DNA of 11,914 nt from NCBI GenBank assembly GCA_902826945.1, contig CADEGS010000139.1, forward strand, positions 1 to 11,914, in the 5' to 3' direction. Positions within the stretch are counted from its first letter, which is position 1; every line of letters begins with the position of its first letter. The DNA comes from an uncultured bacterium (GTDB lineage Bacteria > Planctomycetota > UBA1135 > GCA-002686595). Below the pieces are notes generated by a model. The model ran no database searches, was not told the DNA's origin, and saw nothing but the letters and a program-made list of their open reading frames with translations. Below are positions 2,307-11,914 of this stretch, piece after piece. A program made the position numbers and the translations under genes.

Positions 2307-2807
2307 CTACCAGGCGTCGATGCCGCCGCGCAGCGCGCGCACCTGGGCGAAGCCGTGGCCGGCGAAGTAGGCGGCGACGTCGAGCGCCTTCGAGCCGTCC
2401 TGGCACACGAACACGAGGCGCGTGTCCTTCGGCAGCTCCAGGTAGCGCTGGCTGTTCGCGAAGTCGAGCGGCTCGGCTTGCGGGAAGGGCGCGCGCTCGG
2501 CCTCCTGCGGCGGGCGCACGTCGACCAGGCGCAGCGCCTCGCCCGCCTCCAGCCCGCGGCGCAGCTCGGCCGCGTCGACCTGCATGCTCCGGTCGACCTC
2601 GTCCGAGCGCTCCAGGTGGTCGATCACCTCGCGCACGTCGAGAATGTTGTGGTCCTTGCAGACCTCCGCCAGCGTCTCGGTCGGCTGGAAGGCGCAGGCG
2701 GAGCAGCCGCCCACGTGGTAGCGCTGGAACAGCGCGCGCTGCGCGGAGGGGAAGAGACGCAGGATCTCCTCCATCTTCATGTCGGGGGTGATCGTCGCTC
2801 GGCTCAT
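2307..2807 (-). CDS. DUF1858 (redox disulfide) - rhodanese fusion protein
   Basis: 166 aa, cytoplasmic, no signal or membrane segment. N-terminal part (about 5-60) matches the DUF1858 pattern: ITPDMKMEEILRLFPSA, then GGCSACAFQPTETLAEVC with C35 and C38 as a CxxC pair and a third Cys at 50. C-terminal part (about 75-166) is a single rhodanese domain: LVDVRPPQEAE, then the catalytic loop CQDGSK with C135 as predicted persulfide-bearing residue, and the final ALRGGIDAW typical of the fold. Rhodaneses move sulfane sulfur, and some act as redox or sulfur sensors; the substrate here is unknown. The start ATG overlaps the stop of the upstream kinase (ATGA), with GAGG four bases before it. It is the last gene of the sigma/kinase operon. 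A TACAAT box 9 nt before the ATG could also give it its own transcript. Confidence 0.9.
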   Translation of the reverse strand: MSRATITPDMKMEEILRLFPSAQRALFQRYHVGGCSACAFQPTETLAEVCKDHNILDVREVIDHLERSDEVDRSMQVDAAELRRGLEAGEALRLVDVRPPQEAERAPFPQAEPLDFANSQRYLELPKDTRLVFVCQDGSKALDVAAYFAGHGFAQVRALRGGIDAW

Positions 2808-4201
2808 GGGGCCTCGATTGTACGCGGCGAGGCGCCGGGCCCCGCGGGCGCGTCGCGGGCGATCTCTGCCGCGGCTCCGGCGGCGTGCGCCTCGGCCAGG
2901 AGCGCGCGACCGCGCTCGGCGAGCCCCATCGCCGCGCAGGCCCGGCCGAGCAGGCCCAGGAGCCGCGCGCGCGCCGCGGGGTCGAGCGCGGCGTCGGGGC
3001 CGAGCCCGCCGGCCGCGCGCTCGACGAGCTGGCGCGCGTCGAGCTCCGCCGGCGCGAACGGGTCGCTGCTCTCGAAGACCTCCTGCAGGAAGCCGACGGC
3101 GGCGTTCGCGGTCTCCGCCTCGCGCCGCTCGGCGCGCGCGCGCTCCTCGTTGGCGCGCGCCTCGGCGCGGTAGGCGTTCGCGAGCGCCTCGCTCGCGCGC
3201 GACTCGTGGCGCAGCCGCAGCCAGAGCGCGGTGCTCGTCGCCGTCGCGAGGAGCAGCGCGACGAGCACCGCCGCGAGCGTCGCGACGAGCGAGCGGTGGC
3301 GGCGCGCGAAGCGTGCCAGGCGCAGCGCGCGGCTGGCCGGCCGCGCCAGGATCGGCTCGCCGTCCAGGACGCGGCGCAGGTCGCGTCCGAGCTCCTCGGC
3401 CGAGGCGTAGCGCCGCGCGCGCTCCTTCGCCATCGCCTTGGCGACGATCACCTCGACGTCGCCGCGCCACAGCGAGTCCAGGCGCGAGAGCGGCTCGGGC
3501 TCCTGCTCGAGCACGACGCGCGCCGCCTCGTGCAGCGCCAGCCCCTCGAGCGCGAACGGCCGCCGCCCGCCCAGGAGCTCGTAGGCGAGCACGCCGAGCG
3601 CGTACACGTCGTCGCGCGGATCGGGCGGGCCGGGCTCGCCGCGCACCTGCTCGGGGCTCATCGACGCGAGCGTGCCCACGACCTCCCCGGCCGCGGTCTG
3701 GCGCGAGTCCTCGCCGCCCGCCGCGTGCGCGACGCCGAAGTCGAGCACGCGCGGCTGGCCGCGCTCGTCGACGAGCACGTTGGCCGCCTTCAGGTCGCGG
3801 TGCACGACGCCGCGCTGGTGCGCGTGGTGCACGGCGTCGCACAGGCGCGCGAGGAGCGCCAGGCGCTCGCGCGCGGGCGTCGCGCGCCGCGCGAGCCAGC
3901 CGTCGATGCGCTCGCCGCGCACGAGCTCCATCGCGATGAAGGGCTGCGGGCCCGCGGGCGTCTCGGCGACGCCCGACTCGTACACGCGCGCGATGCCGGG
4001 GTGGTCGAGCCAGCCCAGGAGCTCCGCCTCGCGCCGGAAGCGCCGCGCGGCGCGCGCGCGGCCCGGGTGCAGCAGCTTGAGCGCCACCAGGCGCCGCGGC
4101 GAGCGCTGCCACGCCTCCCACACGACGCCCGCGCCGCCCTCGCCGAGGCGCCGCACGAGCTCGTAGGAGCCGACCGTGCGTCCCGCGCCGTCGATCCTCA
4201 T
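2804..4201 (-). CDS. Membrane Ser/Thr protein kinase, short paralogue nearly lacking TPRs
   Basis: 465 aa. Hanks-type kinase domain at about 12-280 with the key residues intact: P-loop G20-E-G-G-A-G25, Lys42 in VALK, helix-C Glu58, HRDLKAAN with D136 and N141, DFG at 154-156, SPE at 182-184, and DVYALG from D198. One membrane helix at about 303-328 (SLVATLAAVLVALLLATATSTALWL) is followed by a charged, coiled-coil-like stretch (330-370). The protein ends after one helical-pair motif (410-442) that aligns with the first TPR of the upstream kinase, followed by an Ala/Pro/Gly tail. Compared with that neighbour it lacks the N-terminal extension of about 80 residues and essentially the whole TPR array. 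Expected topology is kinase in the cytoplasm and tail outside. ATG at 4201 overlaps the upstream stop as ATGA; its own stop overlaps the rhodanese start in the same way. Probably an active kinase; substrates unknown, the sigma factor is a candidate. Confidence 0.92.
   Translation of the reverse strand: MRIDGAGRTVGSYELVRRLGEGGAGVVWEAWQRSPRRLVALKLLHPGRARAARRFRREAELLGWLDHPGIARVYESGVAETPAGPQPFIAMELVRGERIDGWLARRATPARERLALLARLCDAVHHAHQRGVVHRDLKAANVLVDERGQPRVLDFGVAHAAGGEDSRQTAAGEVVGTLASMSPEQVRGEPGPPDPRDDVYALGVLAYELLGGRRPFALEGLALHEAARVVLEQEPEPLSRLDSLWRGDVEVIVAKAMAKERARRYASAEELGRDLRRVLDGEPILARPASRALRLARFARRHRSLVATLAAVLVALLLATATSTALWLRLRHESRASEALANAYRAEARANEERARAERREAETANAAVGFLQEVFESSDPFAPAELDARQLVERAAGGLGPDAALDPAARARLLGLLGRACAAMGLAERGRALLAEAHAAGAAAEIARDAPAGPGASPRTIEAP
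2817..2822 (-). promoter_or_regulatory. TACAAT -10-like box 9 nt before the rhodanese start
   Basis: On the minus strand TACAAT is followed by CGAGGCCCC and then ATG (2807). The same box with the same 9-nt spacing precedes the sigma-factor ATG. If it is a -10 element the transcript would start about 2-3 nt before the ATG, nearly leaderless. It lies inside the 3' end of the kinase gene. There is no recognisable -35 at 17 nt. The hexamer stands out in almost pure GC sequence. Confidence 0.4.
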
Positions 4202-6984
4202 CGTGCGCCGTCCGCCGCGGCGTCGGCGTCGCGCGCGCCCTGCGCTCCCTCGTCCAGCCAGGCGCGCGCCTGCGCGAGCATGTCCGGGCGCTCGCCGGTC
4301 TGCTCCGCGATCGCCACCACCTCGCGCAGCAGCGGCTCGGCCTCCTCCGCGCGCCCGAGCTGGCGCAGGACGCCCGCCAGCTCGACGCGCATCTCCTGCG
4401 CCATCGGGCTCCGCTCCCCGAAGGCGCCGCGCGCGCCCGCGAGCGCGCGCCGGCGCAGCGCGAGCGCCTGCTCCAGCTCGCCCGCGCGGCGCGCGACGAG
4501 CGCCCGGGCCTTGAGCGAGAGCAGGCTGAGGGCGCTCGTCTCGCCCAGCACGCGCACGCGCGCCTCCCAGGCGACGCGCGCCTCGCGCTCGGCCTCCTCC
4601 AGGCGCCCCTGGTCGAGGTACAGGAAGGCCAGGTTGTGGTGCGCCTGCGAGGCCAGCGGGTGGTCGGGGCCGAAGGCACGCTCGACGCGGCCCAGGAGGT
4701 CGTGGAAGAGCGCCTCGGCCTCGTCGCGGCGCGCGGGCACGTCGGCCAGCGCGTAGGCCAGGTCGTGCAGCGCGCCGAGCGTGATCGTGGACTCCGGCCC
4801 ATCGAGCTCCTCCGCCTGCGCCGCGCACTCGAGCAGCATCGGGAGCGCCTCCTCGACGCGCCCCTGGTTGCCGAGCGAGCTCGCGACCTGCGAGCGCGCG
4901 TTGCGGCAGATGACGGAGGTCGGGCCGTAGCGCTCGGCGGCCAGCCGCTCGGCGCGGCGCGCGACCTCCTCGGCCTCGGCGTGGCGCTGCTGCAGGGTCA
5001 GGCACTGCGCGAGCGGCAGGAGCGCGCCGATCGTGGCCGATGGGTTCGACGCCGTGGCGAGCGCGTCGCGCAGCAGCGCCTCCGCGTCGGGCAGGCGCCC
5101 GACCGAGAGCAGGACGCCCGCCAGGTTGACCTTGGCCGGGTCGGTGCGGCGGTGGTCCTTGCCCCAGTGCAGCTCGTGGACGCGCAGGCTCTCGCGGAAG
5201 AGCGCGATCGCCTCGTCCGGCTCCCCCAGCGACCCCAGCGCGATGCCGAGGTCGTTCTGCAGCGTGGCCGCCTCGTCGCTCTCGGGACCGAGCTCGCGCT
5301 GCACGACCGCCAGCGCGGCGCGCAGGTCGCGCGCCGCCTCCGCCGCGCGCGTCCCCTGCGCGCGGCAGTTCGCGAGCTGGTGGAGCAGACGCGCGTGCTC
5401 CAGGCTGCCCGCGCCGTGGACGGTGCGCGCGAGGGCCTCCGCCTCCTCGAGCAGCGGCTCCGCGCGCTGGCGGTGCCCGAGGCCGATGCAGGCCTTGCCG
5501 AGCGCGCCGAGCAGCCGCGCGCGCACGCCCGGCTCGGCCTGCAGCGCGTCGGGCACGCGCCGCGCGGCGCGCTCGATCAGCTCGCGCGCCGTGAGCACGC
5601 GCGGCGTGCCCTCTGCGCCGGCCTCGGGCGAGAGCAGCGCCTCCAGGAAGGCCAGCGTCTCGCTGGCGTTCCGCGCCTCGCGCGCCGTGCGCTCGCGCAG
5701 CGCCTCGGCCGTGCGCGCCTCGTCGCGCGAGCGCTCGGCCAGCGCCGCGTTGCGCGCGGCCTCGCTGCGCACGCGCAGCCACAAGAGCGTGCTCGTCGTC
5801 GCGCCGGCCGCCAGCACGCCGAGCACGAGCGCCAGCGCCGCGAAGGCCGCCCGGTGCCGCCGCACCAGGCGGCGCGCGCGGTAGGCGCGGCTCGGCGGCC
5901 GCGCGCGGATCGGCTCGTGCGCGAGGAAGCGGCGCAGGTCGGCCGCGAGCGCGGAGGCGGACTCGTAGCGGCGCCACTTCTCCTTGGCCATGGCGCGCGC
6001 GACGATCACCTCGACGTCGCCCGCGAGCGCGGGGTCGAGCGCGCCGAGCGACGGCGGCTCCTCGTGCTCGATGCGCCGCGCCGCGTCGCACAGCGCGGTG
6101 GTCTCGAGCTCGAGCGGCCGTCGTCCGGCGAGCAGCTCGTAGCCGAGCACGCCCAGCGCGTAGACGTCGCTCTGCGCGTCCACGCGGAACGAGTCGCCCA
6201 GCGCCTGCTCCGGGCTCATGTAGGCGAGCGTGCCCAGGAGCTCGCCGGTCGCGGTCACGAGCGTCGTGCGCTCGAGGTCGGGGCCGACCAGGCGCGCCAG
6301 GCCGAAGTCGAGCACGCGCGGCCGGCCGCCGGCCTCGACCAGCACGTTCGCCGGCTTGAGGTCGCGGTGCACGACGCCGCGCTCGTGCGCGTGCTGCACG
6401 GCGTCGCACACGCGCGCCAGGAGCTCCAGGCGCTCCTCGCGCGTCGCGGCGCAGAGCGCGCACCAGCGGTCGATGCGCTCGCCGCGCACGAGCTCCATCG
6501 CGAGCCAGGGCTGCACCGCGCCCTGCACGTCGGCCGTGCCCGAGGCCCACACGCGCGCGACGCCGGGGTGGTCGAGGCGGCCGAGCGCCTCGGCCTCGGT
6601 GTGCAGGCGCCGCAGGCGCTCGGCGCCGAAGAGGCCGGGGCGCAGGAGCTTGAGCGCCACGCGCCGCCGCGGCGCCGACTGCTCGGCCTCGTACACGACG
6701 CCCATGCCGCCCGCGCCGAGCACGGAGAGCACGCGGAAGCCCGCCAGCTCGGAGGGCACGGGCGGCGCCGCGAGGAGCTCGCGCGCGAGCGCGGGCGCCT
6801 CGAGCGGCAGCGGGTCGCGGTCGCGCGCGAGCAGCTCGCGCACCTCGCGCGCCAGGTGCGGGTCGTCGCGCTCCGCGCGCGCGAGCGCTTGCTCGAGCGC
6901 GTCGCCCTCGAGGTCGCACACCGCCTCGAACAGGCGGAAGGCGGCCTCGAAGCCGTCGTCCGGCGGCCCGGGGCGCTCGCTCAT
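4198..6984 (-). CDS. Membrane Ser/Thr protein kinase with C-terminal TPR sensor domain
   Basis: 928 aa. Residues 1-80 form a helical N-terminal extension (FRLFEAVCDLEGDALEQAL..) common before such kinases. Kinase domain about 83-355: P-loop G90-A-G-G-M-G95, Lys112 in VALK, helix-C Glu130, HRDLKPAN with D208 and N213, DFG at 226-228, activation segment rich in Thr (240-252), SPE at 257-259, D273 in DVYALG. One transmembrane helix at about 380-404, then a coiled-coil-like linker (405-450), then a TPR array from about 485 to 912 with repeats such as EAIALFRESL, DAEALLRDAL, EAEALFHDLL and EAEPLLREVV. This is the standard kinase-TM-TPR layout of planctomycetes and acidobacteria, with TPRs as partner- or ligand-binding part, probably outside the membrane. 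ATG at 6984 overlaps the sigma-factor stop (ATGA), with GGAG five bases before it. All catalytic residues are present. Confidence 0.94.
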   Translation of the reverse strand: MSERPGPPDDGFEAAFRLFEAVCDLEGDALEQALARAERDDPHLAREVRELLARDRDPLPLEAPALARELLAAPPVPSELAGFRVLSVLGAGGMGVVYEAEQSAPRRRVALKLLRPGLFGAERLRRLHTEAEALGRLDHPGVARVWASGTADVQGAVQPWLAMELVRGERIDRWCALCAATREERLELLARVCDAVQHAHERGVVHRDLKPANVLVEAGGRPRVLDFGLARLVGPDLERTTLVTATGELLGTLAYMSPEQALGDSFRVDAQSDVYALGVLGYELLAGRRPLELETTALCDAARRIEHEEPPSLGALDPALAGDVEVIVARAMAKEKWRRYESASALAADLRRFLAHEPIRARPPSRAYRARRLVRRHRAAFAALALVLGVLAAGATTSTLLWLRVRSEAARNAALAERSRDEARTAEALRERTAREARNASETLAFLEALLSPEAGAEGTPRVLTARELIERAARRVPDALQAEPGVRARLLGALGKACIGLGHRQRAEPLLEEAEALARTVHGAGSLEHARLLHQLANCRAQGTRAAEAARDLRAALAVVQRELGPESDEAATLQNDLGIALGSLGEPDEAIALFRESLRVHELHWGKDHRRTDPAKVNLAGVLLSVGRLPDAEALLRDALATASNPSATIGALLPLAQCLTLQQRHAEAEEVARRAERLAAERYGPTSVICRNARSQVASSLGNQGRVEEALPMLLECAAQAEELDGPESTITLGALHDLAYALADVPARRDEAEALFHDLLGRVERAFGPDHPLASQAHHNLAFLYLDQGRLEEAEREARVAWEARVRVLGETSALSLLSLKARALVARRAGELEQALALRRRALAGARGAFGERSPMAQEMRVELAGVLRQLGRAEEAEPLLREVVAIAEQTGERPDMLAQARAWLDEGAQGARDADAAADGAR

Positions 6985-7577
6985 CCGCGCTCCAGCTCGC
7001 GCGAGAGCCAGGCGCGCGCGAAGCGCCACTCGCGCACGACCGTGCGCTCGGAGACCTCGAGCACGCGCGCGACCTCCTCGACCGCGAGCCCGGCGAAGGT
7101 GCGCAGCTCGACGATCTCCGCCTGGCGCGGCGCGTGCGCGCGCAGCGCCTCGAGCGCGCCGTCGAGCGCGACCAGGTCCACGCCGTCCGCCTCCGGCGCG
7201 CCGGGCGCCGCCACCAGGTCGATCTCGCCCTCGACGCGCCGCCCGCCGCCGCCGCGCTTGACGCGCCCGCGCGCGCGCGCGTGATCGACCAGGATCTGGC
7301 GCATCGCGCGCGCGGCGGTGGCCAGGAAGTGGCGCCGGTCGCGGAAGGCGAGCTCGCCGGGGTCGAAGAGCTTCAGCCAGGCCTCGTGCACGAGCGCGGT
7401 GGGCTGCAGCGTGTGGTCGGCGCGCTCGCCCTTCATGTAGCCGCCGGCCATCGCGCGCAGCTCCTCGTAGAGCCGCTCGCGCAGGAGCTCGTCGGCGGCC
7501 GGATCGCCGCCGGCGGCCCGCCGCAGCATGCGGCTGGCCTCGCCGCGGGGGCCGTCGGCGCTCGCGCGCTCCGCCAT
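6981..7577 (-). CDS. ECF RNA polymerase sigma factor, TIGR02999 type
   Basis: 198 aa, the usual length of this family. The ATG at 7577 was chosen over an open extension to 7643 because homologues begin near this point and a TACAAT box lies directly upstream. Region 2 spans about 15-105 with the family signatures RLYEELRAMAGGYMKGERADHTLQPTALVHEAW split over 36-67 and RHFLATAARAMRQILVDHARAR (82-103). Region 4 spans about 140-196 with the helix-turn-helix VEEVARVLEVSERTVVREWRFARAWL. At the place where most ECF factors have an acidic DAED-like motif it has Q58-P-T60-A, a change shared by the family. It would direct polymerase to an unknown regulon, probably under control of the two co-encoded kinases; no anti-sigma factor gene is next to it. 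First gene of the operon. Confidence 0.95.
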   Translation of the reverse strand: MAERASADGPRGEASRMLRRAAGGDPAADELLRERLYEELRAMAGGYMKGERADHTLQPTALVHEAWLKLFDPGELAFRDRRHFLATAARAMRQILVDHARARGRVKRGGGGRRVEGEIDLVAAPGAPEADGVDLVALDGALEALRAHAPRQAEIVELRTFAGLAVEEVARVLEVSERTVVREWRFARAWLSRELERG

Positions 7578-7709: not shown

Positions 7710-9881
7710 CTACTCGCTGCGGGGCAGCAGCGGAGGGTGCTCGGCGCGGAACTCCTCGTAGGCGGGCGCGTCGCGCAGGAGCGCGCCGACGTCGGGGTCG
7801 TCGTAGAGGCGCTCGGGGTCGTAGCCCTGGCGCACGCAGCGGTGCAGGAGCGCCAGCGCCGACCCCCCCTCCCCCGCGCCGACGGCGGCCAGCATCGGCA
7901 GGAACGCGTCGCCGTCGCGCGCCTGCGAGCGCCGCGCGCAGCGGCGCGCCGCGTCGGGCTGGGCGTTCCGCAGGTGCGCGCGCACCAGCGCCTGGTCGCG
8001 CAGGAACACGAAGCGGCCCTCGCGCTCGACCGCCTCCTCGGCGCGCTCGAGCTGGCGCACCGCGCTCGCGTGCCGCCCCGCGAGCAGGCTCTGCAGGCCG
8101 CGGTAGAAGGGCTGCAGCGGATCGAAGAGCGCGCGGCGCGTCGCGAGGAGCTCGGAGAGGAAGGGCGCGTCGCGGGCCTCGAAGGCGGCCTCGACGAGCT
8201 GGGCGAAGCTCAGGTCCTCGGGCGGCGTCTCGCGCCACACGTCGGGCGCGCGGCGGTGCTCGTAGCTCGCGTCCACCAGGTGCCAGCGGAAGGCCTCGCG
8301 CAGCGCCTCGTCGGCGCTCTCTCGAAGGCCCTCGCGCAGGAGCGCGAGGCCGCGCTCCACCTCGCCCTCCGCGAGCGCGAGCAGCGCGCGCTCGAGGCGG
8401 ATCCAGGCGTCCTCCGGCGCGCGCGCGGCGTGGCGCTCGAACAGCGCGCGCCAGTCGTCGCGCGCGCCCGCGCCGCGCAGGAGCGGCGCGAGCTGGCGGA
8501 AGGCCGTGCGCGCGTCCGGGCAGGCCTCGTAGCCGGCGAGCGCCGTCCCGGTGGCGAGCGAGGCCTCGAGGAACAGGCGCTGGAAGGCGTCCCGCTCCTC
8601 GTCGGGCGCGAGCGCCAGCGCCTCGCGCGCCTCGCGCAGCGCGTCCTCCGGCTGCTCCAGCTCGAGGTGCAGCCGGGCCAGGTAGTACGCGGCGTTCGCG
8701 TCGTCGGGCCGCACCTCGCGCTCGGCCCGGCACAGGCACTCGGCGGCGTCGAAGAGCTCCCCGTCGAGCAGGAGGACGACCAGCGGCTCGAAGCCGGCGC
8801 GCCCATCGGGCGCGGCGAGGAAGCGCTCGCGCAGCGGCTGCATGGCGAAGCGCGGCAGCGTCGCCGCGAGCTCGACCAGGAGCGTCTCGTCGCCGGGCGC
8901 GAGCGCCAGCGCCTGCTCCAGCGCGCTCACCGCCTCGTCCGTGCGCCCGAGCGCGCGCAGCAGCCGGCCGCGCAGGTGCAGCGTCAGGCGGTCGGGGCCG
9001 CCGATCGCCTCCTCGTAGCGCGCGAGCTCGCGCTGGGCCTCGTCCGCGCGGCCGAGCGCCTCGAGCGCCTGCGCGGCGAACAGCCGGCCCAGCGCCGCGT
9101 CGGGGTAGGCGCTGGCGAAGGCCTCGGCGCGCGCCAGCCCGGCGGTCGTCTCCTCGATCGCCCCTTGCACGAGCCCCGCCTCGAGCGGCTGCACGTAGAG
9201 CGCCGGCCACGCCGCCAGCTCGCCCGCGAGGATCTGCGCCGCTCCCTCCAGGTCGCCCTGGAGCACGAGCTCCTGTCCGCGCGCGAGCGCGTCCTGGAGC
9301 CGGTCGAACCCGAGGCCGGCGCCGTCCACGGCGATGCCCGCAGCCACGTAGTCGGAGAGCCGCCAGCCGGTGTCCACGTCGCGGTAGTCCACGATCTGCT
9401 CGCGCCCGTCGCGCGGCTCGATCCGCCACGCGAGGTAGACGTCCAGGTCCTGCGCGCTCACCGTCGCGCTCAGGAGCGTCCACCCCCCGCGCGCGCCGTC
9501 CTGGCGCAGCGAGCGCACGACCAGCTCGGCGGGCGCCGCGCGCGCCTCCTCGGCGAGGCCGGCGAGGAAGCCGCTCGTCCAGGTCCAGCGCCAGAACGGG
9601 TCGCGGCCGCGCGGGTGCGGCGCGCGCGCGAGCGCGGCGTCGAGCAACCCGCCCAGGTCGAGCGAGCGGCGCAGGCGCTCCGCGTCGCCGGCGCGGATCG
9701 CGTCGTGCGCCTCGCGCACGAGCGCGCTCAGGCGCGCGCGCGTCGCCTCGTCGAGCGGCGCCGCATCGGGCGCGAGCTCGCTCCCGGCGTCGCCGGCGCC
9801 GTCGCTCGGCTCCTGCGCCGCGGCCGGCGGGAAGGCGGCGGGCGAAGCGCCCGCGAGGGCGAGGAGGAGGAGGACGCGCAC
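7710..9881 (-). CDS. Secreted TPR-repeat protein of unknown function
   Basis: 723 aa from a GTG at 9881, which gives a signal peptide: MRVLLLLALAGASPAAFPPAAAQ, likely cut after AAA at about 20-22. The frame is open far upstream, but that part overlaps the zinc-ribbon gene in another frame and is rejected. Residues 45-190 form a mixed domain that ends in a beta-rich segment (WTLLSATVSAQDLDVYLAWRI, then QIVDYRDVDTGWRLSDYVAAG); I do not recognise it, and an NTF2-like or MlaC-like fold is only a thought. From about 195 to 715 the protein is helical TPR-type repeats, for example ALEALGRADEAQRELARYEEA, LLRALGRTDEAVSALEQALALAP and LARLHLELEQPEDALREAREALALAP. It follows the zinc-ribbon gene in the same direction after 110 bp. 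Probably an extracytoplasmic scaffold; function not inferable. Confidence 0.85.
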   Translation of the reverse strand: MRVLLLLALAGASPAAFPPAAAQEPSDGAGDAGSELAPDAAPLDEATRARLSALVREAHDAIRAGDAERLRRSLDLGGLLDAALARAPHPRGRDPFWRWTWTSGFLAGLAEEARAAPAELVVRSLRQDGARGGWTLLSATVSAQDLDVYLAWRIEPRDGREQIVDYRDVDTGWRLSDYVAAGIAVDGAGLGFDRLQDALARGQELVLQGDLEGAAQILAGELAAWPALYVQPLEAGLVQGAIEETTAGLARAEAFASAYPDAALGRLFAAQALEALGRADEAQRELARYEEAIGGPDRLTLHLRGRLLRALGRTDEAVSALEQALALAPGDETLLVELAATLPRFAMQPLRERFLAAPDGRAGFEPLVVLLLDGELFDAAECLCRAEREVRPDDANAAYYLARLHLELEQPEDALREAREALALAPDEERDAFQRLFLEASLATGTALAGYEACPDARTAFRQLAPLLRGAGARDDWRALFERHAARAPEDAWIRLERALLALAEGEVERGLALLREGLRESADEALREAFRWHLVDASYEHRRAPDVWRETPPEDLSFAQLVEAAFEARDAPFLSELLATRRALFDPLQPFYRGLQSLLAGRHASAVRQLERAEEAVEREGRFVFLRDQALVRAHLRNAQPDAARRCARRSQARDGDAFLPMLAAVGAGEGGSALALLHRCVRQGYDPERLYDDPDVGALLRDAPAYEEFRAEHPPLLPRSE

Positions 9882-9966
9882 GGTCGGCTCGGCGGTCGCG
9901 GGCGGCGCGCGCGGGACTCGCGCCGGCCGCCCGGGGGTCGCGGGCGGCGCAGCGCCCGCGCGCCTG

Positions 9967-9972: not shown

Positions 9973-9995
9973 GCCGGGCGGCGGCGCCGGGCTAC
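9970..9995 (-). terminator. Hairpin overlapping the stop codon of the zinc-ribbon gene
   Basis: On the minus strand GTAGCC pairs with GGCTAC (outer 6 bp). After a C-C mismatch, GGCG pairs with CGCC around a 4-nt loop. The stop codon TAG at 9994-9992 is inside the first arm. No T tract follows. It may terminate or attenuate read-through into the TPR gene, or protect the mRNA end. Confidence 0.35.
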
Positions 9996-11137
9996 CCCGC
10001 GCCCAGCGCGACGAGCGCGAGCACGAGCGCCGCCAGCGCCAGCACCGCCAGCAGGATCTTCGGCCAGGAGAGCGGCGCCTCGCCGACGCAGCGGCCGCTC
10101 TGGCCGTGCACGAGCACGGTGTAGGTCTTGCCGCCGAAGGCGTACTGCAAGGACCACAGGGGCAAGAGCACGTGCTTCCAGCGCACGTCGTCGACCTCGC
10201 TCTGCACGCGCAGGTCGCGGTGCGTGTCGCCGGGCACGTCGCCGGCGCAGCGCGCGCGCTGGCCGGCCTCGATCGCCGCGCGGCCCTGCTCCCAGGCCTG
10301 CTCGAGGTCCACGCCGTACTCCTCGGCGCTCCAGCCGGCGAGGTAGTGCGGCTGGTAGGGGCGCAGCTCGCGCAGGTCGTAGGCGCCGAGCTTCTGCACC
10401 AGGTCGCCGCGCAGGCCGGCGGAGCCGCTGACGAGCAGGTCGTCGTAGCGGTCGTCGCGCGCGCCCCAGGCCGGCCGCCAGCGCACCTTGCGCACGCGCC
10501 GCGTGGCGAGCTTGGCGCGCCCGCCGACGCGCACGACGGTCGTCTCCTCCGCCCAGTAGTACGTGCCCGCGTCGGCGGACCACCGCGAGCGCACGCTCGC
10601 GTCGAAGGTCCAGAAGGGCGCGTACAGGCCGAGCGCGTCGAAGCGCTTCGTGCGCTTCAGCGCCGCCGGCCGGAACCACAGGCCGCCGAGCCAGGCGCGG
10701 AAGGCCTCGCGCACGCGCTCGGCGCCGACGTCGAGCGGCACGAGCGACTCCGGCCGCAAGGCGTTGCGGCTCGCCTCCTGGTCGAGCACGGTGGCCGAGC
10801 CGCAGTAGGCGCACGTGCGCGCGGTGGCGCGCTCGCCGAAGGCCACGCGCGCGCCGCACGCGCCGCACGAGAGCACGCGCACCTCGAGGCCCAGGCCGCG
10901 CGCCGCCGCGCCCGCGTCGGAGAGCGGGCGCTCGAGCGGCGCGCCCTCGACGCGCGGCACGGGGACGCGGCTCTCGCAGTGCGCGCAGACGAGCGCGTCG
11001 GCGTCGGGGTCCCAGGTCGTGCCGGCGCCGCAGCGCGCGCACGGGAAGTCGACGGGTTCGCTCACGCTCGTCCAGGGTGCCCGCGGCGCGGGCTCCGCGG
11101 GCGGAGCCGGCGGGGGCTTCGCGGTCGGGGGGGACAC
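9992..11137 (-). CDS. Double zinc-ribbon protein with C-terminal membrane anchor (YdjG-like)
   Basis: 381 aa from a GTG at 11137. A second GTG at 11065 (giving MSEPVDFPCARCG) is an equally reasonable start that drops the Pro/Ala-rich first 24 residues. Two zinc ribbons: C33/C36 with C51/C54, and C91/C94 with C109/C112, each CxxC...CxxC. A middle domain rich in Trp/Tyr follows (about 135-345: WLGGLWFRPAALKR, LYAPFWTFDA, LLPLWSLQYAFGGKTYTV, VHGQSGRCVGEAPLSWPK). One transmembrane helix lies at 358-379, close to the C terminus. This layout matches the TFIIB-type zinc-ribbon family that includes Bacillus YdjG, a membrane partner of the SPFH protein YdjI in PspA recruitment. The divergent neighbour is just such an SPFH protein, which supports the assignment. 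Not an enzyme by any visible motif; helicase annotations of relatives are misleading. Confidence 0.85.
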   Translation of the reverse strand: MSPPTAKPPPAPPAEPAPRAPWTSVSEPVDFPCARCGAGTTWDPDADALVCAHCESRVPVPRVEGAPLERPLSDAGAAARGLGLEVRVLSCGACGARVAFGERATARTCAYCGSATVLDQEASRNALRPESLVPLDVGAERVREAFRAWLGGLWFRPAALKRTKRFDALGLYAPFWTFDASVRSRWSADAGTYYWAEETTVVRVGGRAKLATRRVRKVRWRPAWGARDDRYDDLLVSGSAGLRGDLVQKLGAYDLRELRPYQPHYLAGWSAEEYGVDLEQAWEQGRAAIEAGQRARCAGDVPGDTHRDLRVQSEVDDVRWKHVLLPLWSLQYAFGGKTYTVLVHGQSGRCVGEAPLSWPKILLAVLALAALVLALVALGAG

Positions 11138-11250: not shown

Positions 11251-11914
11251 ATGGGAGTGATGGACTGGTTCAAGCGCGGCGTGGGCGAGATGATGATCGC
11301 CCGCCCGGACGACGCGAAGTCGCACGTCGTGTGGAAGCATCCGGATCCCACGATCCCGATGAAGTCGCAGCTCACGGTCGAGGCCGACGAGACGGCGATC
11401 TTCTTCCGCGACGGCAAGGTCCAGGCCAAGCTCGGTCCCGGGCGCCACACGCTGGACAGCTCGAACCTGCCCTTCCTCTCCAACCTGGTCGACAGCTTCA
11501 CCGGCGGCCGGGTGTTCATCGCGGAGGTCTTTTTCGTCAACCTCCGCGAGCACACCGGAGTCAAGTTCGGCGGCCGCGTCGGCCACGTCGAGGACCCGAA
11601 GAGCGGCGTGCCGGTCGAGACGATGGTCCACGGCGAGTTCTCCTTCCGCGTGACCGATCCGGAACGGCTGATCGTCGGCCTGGTCGGCATGGGCCGCGCC
11701 GAGTCCTACGAGGTGCGCTCCTGGATGAAGGAGCAGGTGCTCAAGGTCATCCGCGACCGCATCGGCGAGCTCCTGGTGAAGAACAAATGGCCGCTCCTCG
11801 ACGTGACCTCGGGCGCCTACACCGAGGAGGTCGAGAAAGCGGTTCTGGTCGGCCTGGAGGACCACGTCGACGACTACGGCATCCACATCGTGCGCCTGGG
11901 CAACTTCGTCGTCG
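11251..11914 (+). CDS. SPFH-domain protein, YdjI type (partial, runs off the right end)
   Basis: The first 221 aa are present; the 3' end is beyond the window. There is no signal peptide or membrane helix at the N terminus, unlike flotillins, but as in YdjI. An amphipathic start (MGVMDWFKRGVGEMM) is followed by VVWKHPDP, then the SPFH core: QLTVEADETAIFFRDGKV (40-57), LGPGRHTLD (61-69), NLPFLSNLVDSFTGG (72-86), AEVFFVNLREH (91-101) and GEFSFRVTDPERL (128-140), ending in the helical part at 150-220. These are the landmarks of the family often annotated 'virion core protein' or YdjI. In Bacillus subtilis YdjI works with membrane proteins YdjG/YdjH to bring PspA to damaged membrane. Here the YdjG-like gene is divergent instead of in one operon. 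No PspA-like gene is visible; it could follow to the right. Confidence 0.9.
   Translation, partial: MGVMDWFKRGVGEMMIARPDDAKSHVVWKHPDPTIPMKSQLTVEADETAIFFRDGKVQAKLGPGRHTLDSSNLPFLSNLVDSFTGGRVFIAEVFFVNLREHTGVKFGGRVGHVEDPKSGVPVETMVHGEFSFRVTDPERLIVGLVGMGRAESYEVRSWMKEQVLKVIRDRIGELLVKNKWPLLDVTSGAYTEEVEKAVLVGLEDHVDDYGIHIVRLGNFVV

Follow-up and report, generated by a model that had tools for sequence, protein, structure and literature searches.

The 11.9-kb contig CADEGS010000139.1 (77% GC), referred to below as the window and always meant in its full length, carries on its minus strand an operon of genes for an extracytoplasmic function (ECF) type sigma factor, two Hanks-type kinases (kinase 1 and kinase 2) and a rhodanese-like protein, in this order, each gene overlapping the next by ATGA. 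The 198-aa sigma factor (6981..7577, minus strand) matches the Sigma70_ECF families TIGR02999 (204.1 bits, cut-off 126.15) and PF07638 (174.6 bits, cut-off 21.1), and the few named proteins among the closest relatives are mostly from Planctomycetota or Phycisphaerales metagenome-assembled genomes. By Pfam and motif analysis, the 928-aa kinase 1 (4198..6984, minus strand) has a PknS-like plan with an N-terminal arm, a Hanks-type kinase domain, one hydrophobic, transmembrane (TM)-like segment and a C-terminal part of tetratricopeptide repeats (TPR). The 465-aa kinase 2 (2804..4201, minus strand), which shares 54% identity with kinase 1 across 429 aligned positions, has a TM-like segment and no TPR match. 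The G-loop, VALK, HRDLKxxN, DFG and SPE motifs and the hydrophobic segment are retained in both proteins, in agreement with an original prediction made from the DNA sequence, which had placed two apparently intact, ATGA-coupled membrane kinases directly downstream of the sigma gene and had proposed that they switch the sigma factor on by phosphorylating Thr60.

Region 2.2 and position 60 across the sigma family

Residues 55-65 of the sigma factor read H-T-L-Q-P-T-A-L-V-H-E, and the segment Q58-P-T60-A-L-V-H-E aligns with D-A-E-D-L-V-Q-E of ordinary ECF factors. The motif Q58-P59-T60-A61 (7395..7406, minus strand) stands in place of DAED and has no acid at any of its four positions, as had been predicted, and T60 (codon 7398-7400) falls on the Glu of DAED, which agrees with the third-position phosphothreonine of ECF43 factors (PMC13147305). 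T60 is the proposed phospho-acceptor on the grounds of this alignment, the family census, the predicted structure and the literature. An alignment of the window sigma factor with its 119 best-scoring homologues shows no variation at T56, L57, Q58, T60, A61 and E65; for T56, originally named as an alternative phosphosite, nothing speaks beyond this conservation. In the AlphaFold2 model of the sigma factor (mean predicted local distance difference test score, pLDDT, 82.6) a helix starts at residue 59 and runs to 71, so that T60 is its second residue and residue 58 its cap. T60 was accordingly discarded as the helix cap, and another structural role for it would still fit the model. The same model, used in a fold search, retrieved ECF factors that superposed poorly over the whole chain, none of them at E <= 0.001.

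The family census comprised 325 distinct sigma factors obtained from family-model matches and not selected on the motif, with starting genome records of Planctomycetes, Acidobacteria, Proteobacteria, Spartobacteria and others. Loci of a motif-based scan led to ten of the genomes (G001-G005, G456-G460), in which the family model then found the sigma genes; the rest were drawn evenly within phyla. The loci were mostly the best-scoring among the matches listed, of which only part was taken. The counts exclude the window together with loci known from the motif-based scan only (74 in all), as well as sigma domains below 100 bits of our own model, a single row with a gap at 58-61 and sequence duplicates; 13 of the 325 factors have a shortened context, and all 13 have Thr at position 60. 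The residue at this position is Thr in 301 factors, Ser in nine, Ala in nine, Gly in three and Val, Arg or Ile in one each, with Asp and Glu in none. The motif had been expected to be family-wide in TIGR02999, and the census confirms this: Thr at position 60 is the family norm and not an oddity of the window gene.

For 235 of the 325 census sigma genes, the start of a same-strand kinase domain lies no more than 1.5 kb downstream. It had been suggested that T60 might be conserved more strictly next to a kinase, but the residue is Thr in 217 of these 235 factors versus all 24 that have no kinase within 4 kb (nine of the 24 with shorter context). Kinase adjacency was rejected on these grounds as the driver of T60 conservation. 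At the genome level, Hanks-type kinases are present in all 14 sigma-bearing genomes tested, 11 of which have a T60 factor, and none of the 14 combines a T60 factor with the lack of a Hanks kinase; this test is weak because five of six genomes without the TIGR02999 sigma family also had kinases. Three genomes (G160, G347 and G261) have a single kinase at E <= 1e-20, adjoining the sigma gene or within about 1.6 kb of it. Three of seven matching plasmid records were opened, and all three have a sigma-kinase pairing.

Loss of T60 is accompanied by a swap of charge. An acid occupies position 58, 59 or 61 in 20 of the 24 factors without T60 versus 57 of the 301 with it (Fisher 1.8e-10), and when residue 60 is neither Thr nor Ser an acid stands beside it in 13 of 15 cases. 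Among the tested columns, acid content changes most at 58 and next most at 61 upon T60 loss (nominal p 4e-5 and 4e-4). Score bands that include lost cases show the same difference, except the highest band with its single lost case, and a comparison with the nearest T60-bearing relatives gives 15 discordant pairs for the charge swap and one against it (p 5e-4). On a FastTree tree, T60 changed at least 21 times. Ser or Thr at position 59 is also commoner where residue 60 is neither Thr nor Ser (10/15 versus 55/301). The gain of acids with the loss of T60 fits a role of T60 in supplying charge, and we read this sequence pattern as probable selection for one negative charge on the region 2.2 face.

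The N-terminal kinase arm and sigma region 4

In sigma-adjacent kinases the kinase domain is preceded by a median of 86 residues, and these residues contain a three-helix module of about 50 residues, here called the arm. When the adjacent kinases with 60-110 residues ahead of the kinase domain were split in two, a model trained on one half found the arm in 122 of the 123 kinases of the other, and a more sensitive model found it on 266 of 274 sigma-adjacent kinases (both counts include motif-scan loci). Kinase 1 matches the arm model (5.9e-12) and kinase 2 gives no match to it. The arm of kinase 1 (residues 10-56; 6817..6957, minus strand), a predicted docking module for sigma region 4, is modelled by AlphaFold2 as three confident helices (10-22, 27-40 and 42-56). 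The two kinases, both intact as originally supposed, are thus not equivalent, since only kinase 1 has the arm of nearly all sigma-adjacent kinases, and for this reason kinase 1 is likely the sigma kinase.

Exactly one of two kinases carries the arm in the window and in the tandem loci L433, L282, L421 and L448, and both carry it in the tandem-flagged loci L065 and L056. Tandem kinases downstream of a sigma gene are uncommon, being found in 4 of the 158 census loci whose downstream sequence exceeds 5 kb and in 2 of 58 others, the window included; a plasmid of Eleftheria terrae has the same sigma-kinase-kinase row. Among the other kinases of the fetched loci (106, of which 97 have at least 15 upstream residues) the arm is present on 81 of the 97, so it is not unique to directly adjacent kinases; these loci were chosen for their sigma genes. 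Pfam has no family for the arm, and a Protein Data Bank (PDB) fold search with its model returned no usable match (best E 1.5). The only convincing PDB match of the arm profile is to residues 12-76 of 9EED, which is PknS, whose N-terminal segment was unseen in the crystal and was assigned no function in the passages of PMC13147305. Apart from PknS passages, our literature search returned no description of the arm, and as far as this search shows, neither the arm nor its covariation with sigma region 4 has been described so far.

The covariation was analysed in 232 pairs of neighbouring sigma factors and kinases (190 from the census, 42 others) after removal of nearly empty linker columns. Of 10,092 column pairs between sigma factor and arm, five score higher than any of 200 shuffles, and all five use columns 152, 193 (twice), 185 and 148 of sigma region 4 (residues 148-193 of the window factor; 6999..7136, minus strand). 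Tested against their own nulls of 40 shuffles, none of 44,370 pairs between the sigma factor and the catalytic domain and none of 14,790 pairs between the arm and the catalytic domain stand out. In kinase 1 numbering, the pair sigma 193/arm 47 has opposite charges in 138 cases, 15 of them reversed, and like charges in two (136 and three when the 232 pairs are realigned with the held-out set described below). Opposite and like charges number 46 and 0 for sigma 152/arm 16, and 72 and two for sigma 185/arm 55. Independent pairs on supported branches of the tree give ratios of about 8:0, 8:0 and 13:0.5 (median p 0.008, 0.008 and 0.0005). The same pattern is seen in a held-out set of 91 arm-bearing neighbours (of 103) in all gene orientations, with opposite versus like charges of 51:2, 22:0 and 26:0, each beyond 2,000 shuffles; this set was tested by shuffling only. 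In the window, R193 is matched by E47 and E50, and R185 by D55.

The genomic distribution of the arm follows the sigma family. Genomes were scanned for arms with an 18-row model (A2), up to 150 candidates being scored per genome (150 of 218 in G403); sigma-free genomes were those with no sigma match at E <= 1e-30 or 1e-35, up to eight candidates per genome being scored in one sigma scan, and their kinases were counted at E <= 1e-25. With this model no arm was found in six genomes without TIGR02999 sigma factors, which have 113, 57, 46, 7, 5 and 3 kinases (at least 231, the count for G403 being a lower bound), and genomes with 17, 15, 18, 8, 1 and 1 sigma factors have 21, 17, 18, 10, 1 and 1 arms. 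Over 14 genomes, arm and sigma counts correlate with a Pearson coefficient of 0.99 and a Spearman coefficient of 0.89. In G160 and G347, with one sigma factor each, the 18-row model finds no arm, and the adjacent kinases match the more sensitive one. Sixteen of the 21 arms of G001 lie within 5 kb of a sigma gene (0.6 expected at random) and five do not, a count that uses 20 sigma genes, four of them below the family cut-off. G445 has no kinase within 6 kb of its sigma gene, and the only arm-bearing kinase found among its 15 is encoded about 27 kb away. This kinase is a candidate partner of the orphan sigma factor, and such a distant partner might explain the persistence of T60 where no kinase is adjacent.

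The remaining genes and loci are summarized as follows. The rhodanese-like protein (PF00581; 2307..2807, minus strand) is encoded by the fourth ATGA-coupled gene of the operon. A TPR-repeat protein is encoded upstream of the sigma gene on the same strand (7710-9950), and a divergent SPFH/Band_7_1 protein (11251-11913, plus strand) is cut by the contig end. The absence of an adjacent anti-sigma gene, also part of the original prediction, agrees with the Pfam scan, which named no anti-sigma factor among seven window proteins, with the neighbours of the sigma gene on either side among them; the scan started at position 2307, and 9992-11137 gave no match. Elsewhere, a Pseudoalteromonas xiamenensis plasmid (L447) has two tandem sigma-kinase pairs, the second kinase being cut by the end of the stretch retrieved, and contig 31 of G004 (about 94445-95488; L122 / L314) has a 494-aa frame with two TIGR02999 matches, possibly a tandem sigma-sigma fusion. 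The passages of a paper on planctomycete kinases (PMC11032199) contain nothing on sigma partners.

Proposed activation mechanism and alternatives

Our preferred interpretation, which we hold with fair confidence, is that the operon encodes a kinase-activated sigma factor of the ECF43 kind, on which kinase 1 docks by its arm at region 4 and phosphorylates T60. Before phosphorylation, region 2.2 would lack the acidic face for gripping RNA polymerase at its beta-prime subunit. Kinase 1, held in the membrane, would bind sigma region 4 by the three-helix arm through R193 with E47/E50 and R185 with D55. A presumed extracytoplasmic TPR part of kinase 1 would sense an external cue and the kinase would phosphorylate T60, the phosphate supplying the missing negative charge so that the holoenzyme may form. 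The armless kinase 2 would more likely act as a second sensor or input, or as a modulator of kinase 1. From T87 to T160 the window factor contains no further Ser or Thr, and a linker switch of the EcfK type is therefore absent from it, leaving region 2.2 as the main candidate.

Several observations weigh against this interpretation. Since T60 is equally conserved in factors without a nearby kinase, its conservation is not explained by adjacency, and position 60 itself is acidic in none of the 325 factors. In the charge-swap analysis, columns 51, 166 and 65 also differ (nominal p 0.003-0.006), the effect of column 61 alone is not significant after correction for about 187 columns, and the tree supplies five independent pairs on supported branches (about 3:0), too few for significance. 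An intact kinase is found beside 15 of 18 factors that lost T60 versus 187 of 200 T60 factors, which implies that the kinase does more than charge position 60, or uses Ser/Thr59. The 152/16 pair of the window, Q152/F16, is an uncharged exception to the covariation. Finally, the T51A variant of EcfK is functional in vivo, which is explained by a second phosphosite in the linker (PMC13147305).

T60 might instead be a structural, unphosphorylated residue, with E65 and the rest of region 2 binding polymerase well enough and the kinase acting elsewhere. Such a role would account for its retention in all 24 factors without a nearby kinase, for its place in the first turn of the predicted helix and for the invariance of E65 in the 120-row alignment. 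However, the loss of T60 goes with acids at 58 or 61, including Glu, which is a poor helix cap, and no other column shifts as strongly. Since the equivalent Thr is moreover a reported phosphosite in EcfK and EcfP (PMC13147305), we regard a purely structural T60 as unlikely. The persistence of mostly intact adjacent kinases beside T60-lost factors can also be explained by a kinase that is mainly an anti-sigma device, its arm clamping sigma region 4 at the membrane until the kinase is activated, with T60 phosphorylation secondary or absent. The strongest sigma-arm couplings are indeed all in region 4, and no anti-sigma gene was named among the window proteins scanned. In Xanthomonas citri, however, EcfK-dependent expression needs PknS, and a phosphomimetic EcfK bypasses this need (PMC13147305, PMC8999054), which indicates activation and not inhibition and makes a mainly inhibitory kinase quite improbable. 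As an added layer, a clamp of this sort is compatible with activation by T60 phosphorylation.

The covariation on which the docking proposal draws could in turn be an artefact of neighbouring genes being inherited together: all pairs are neighbours, phylogeny inflates mutual information, and sigma and arm distances correlate overall (r 0.33). However, in the catalytic domain of the same kinases no pair rises above the shuffles; the independent-pair tests on the tree retain the signal, the charges reverse as expected of salt bridges, and the held-out neighbours in other gene arrangements agree, so that this explanation seems very improbable. We consider it probable that the sigma kinases of the ECF43/TIGR02999 kind share a previously undescribed three-helix arm that docks on region 4 by a swappable salt-bridge code, in which, numbered as in the window proteins, sigma positions 152, 185 and 193 pair with arm positions 16, 55 and 47. 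The code would wire each sigma factor to its own kinase even when their genes are apart, the arm may anchor the sigma factor to the membrane before phosphorylation, and tandem kinases would represent one docked and one undocked input kinase.

The T60 switch alone adds a further operon to a mechanism already published. The arm provides a testable answer to the question of what the N-terminal segment of PknS-type kinases does, and to that of how bacteria keep many parallel kinase-sigma pairs separate, some genomes having as many as 27 TIGR02999 sigma factors. If the salt-bridge code holds true, partners of orphan sigma factors would be predictable from sequence.

Relation to known systems

ECF43 factors have been described as being without the DAED motif (PMC8999054, PMC8103513); they have the consensus QTTA, of which the third residue is phosphorylated and is Thr in 88% of members (PMC13147305). 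A phosphothreonine of region 2.2 was reported in EcfP and in EcfK (T51) (PMC13147305), and activation of both factors at the equivalent Thr has been published (PMC13147305, PMC8999054). The window shares the features of this group, namely QPTA with Thr in third position, adjacent Hanks-type kinases (two) and no anti-sigma gene named, and by these features its sigma factor is classed as ECF43-like. The predicted phosphorylation switch is thus partly supported, matching that of EcfP/PknT and fitting the charge swap at region 2.2, but it is not new, because the ECF43 literature already reports it for EcfP/PknT and EcfK/PknS.

Sigma genes beside a Ser/Thr kinase gene, usually without an anti-sigma factor, are likewise found in ECF59, ECF61, ECF62 and ECF217 (PMC8999054). 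The window factor differs from these kinase-linked groups, which according to PMC8999054 keep a DAED-like acidic motif. For ECF59 this is disputed by PMC8103513, which gives an uncharged motif with a phosphorylated Ser, and this disagreement suggests that the boundary between ECF43 and the other groups is not sharp. With EcfP/PknT of Vibrio parahaemolyticus the window shares an uncharged replacement of DAED (STTA in EcfP, QPTA in the window factor), the Thr at the third position and a nearby Ser/Thr kinase gene (PMC8999054, PMC13147305), and it differs in its two kinases, the coupled rhodanese gene, high GC and Planctomycetota-like relatives. In the EcfK/PknS system of X. citri, EcfK has QATE and linker phosphosites (T106), whereas the motif of the window factor contains no acid and its linker no Ser/Thr. 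Kinase 1 shares the plan of PknS, with an N-terminal extension, kinase domain, TM segment and TPR part (PMC13147305), and by the profile match its arm is homologous to PknS residues 12-76.

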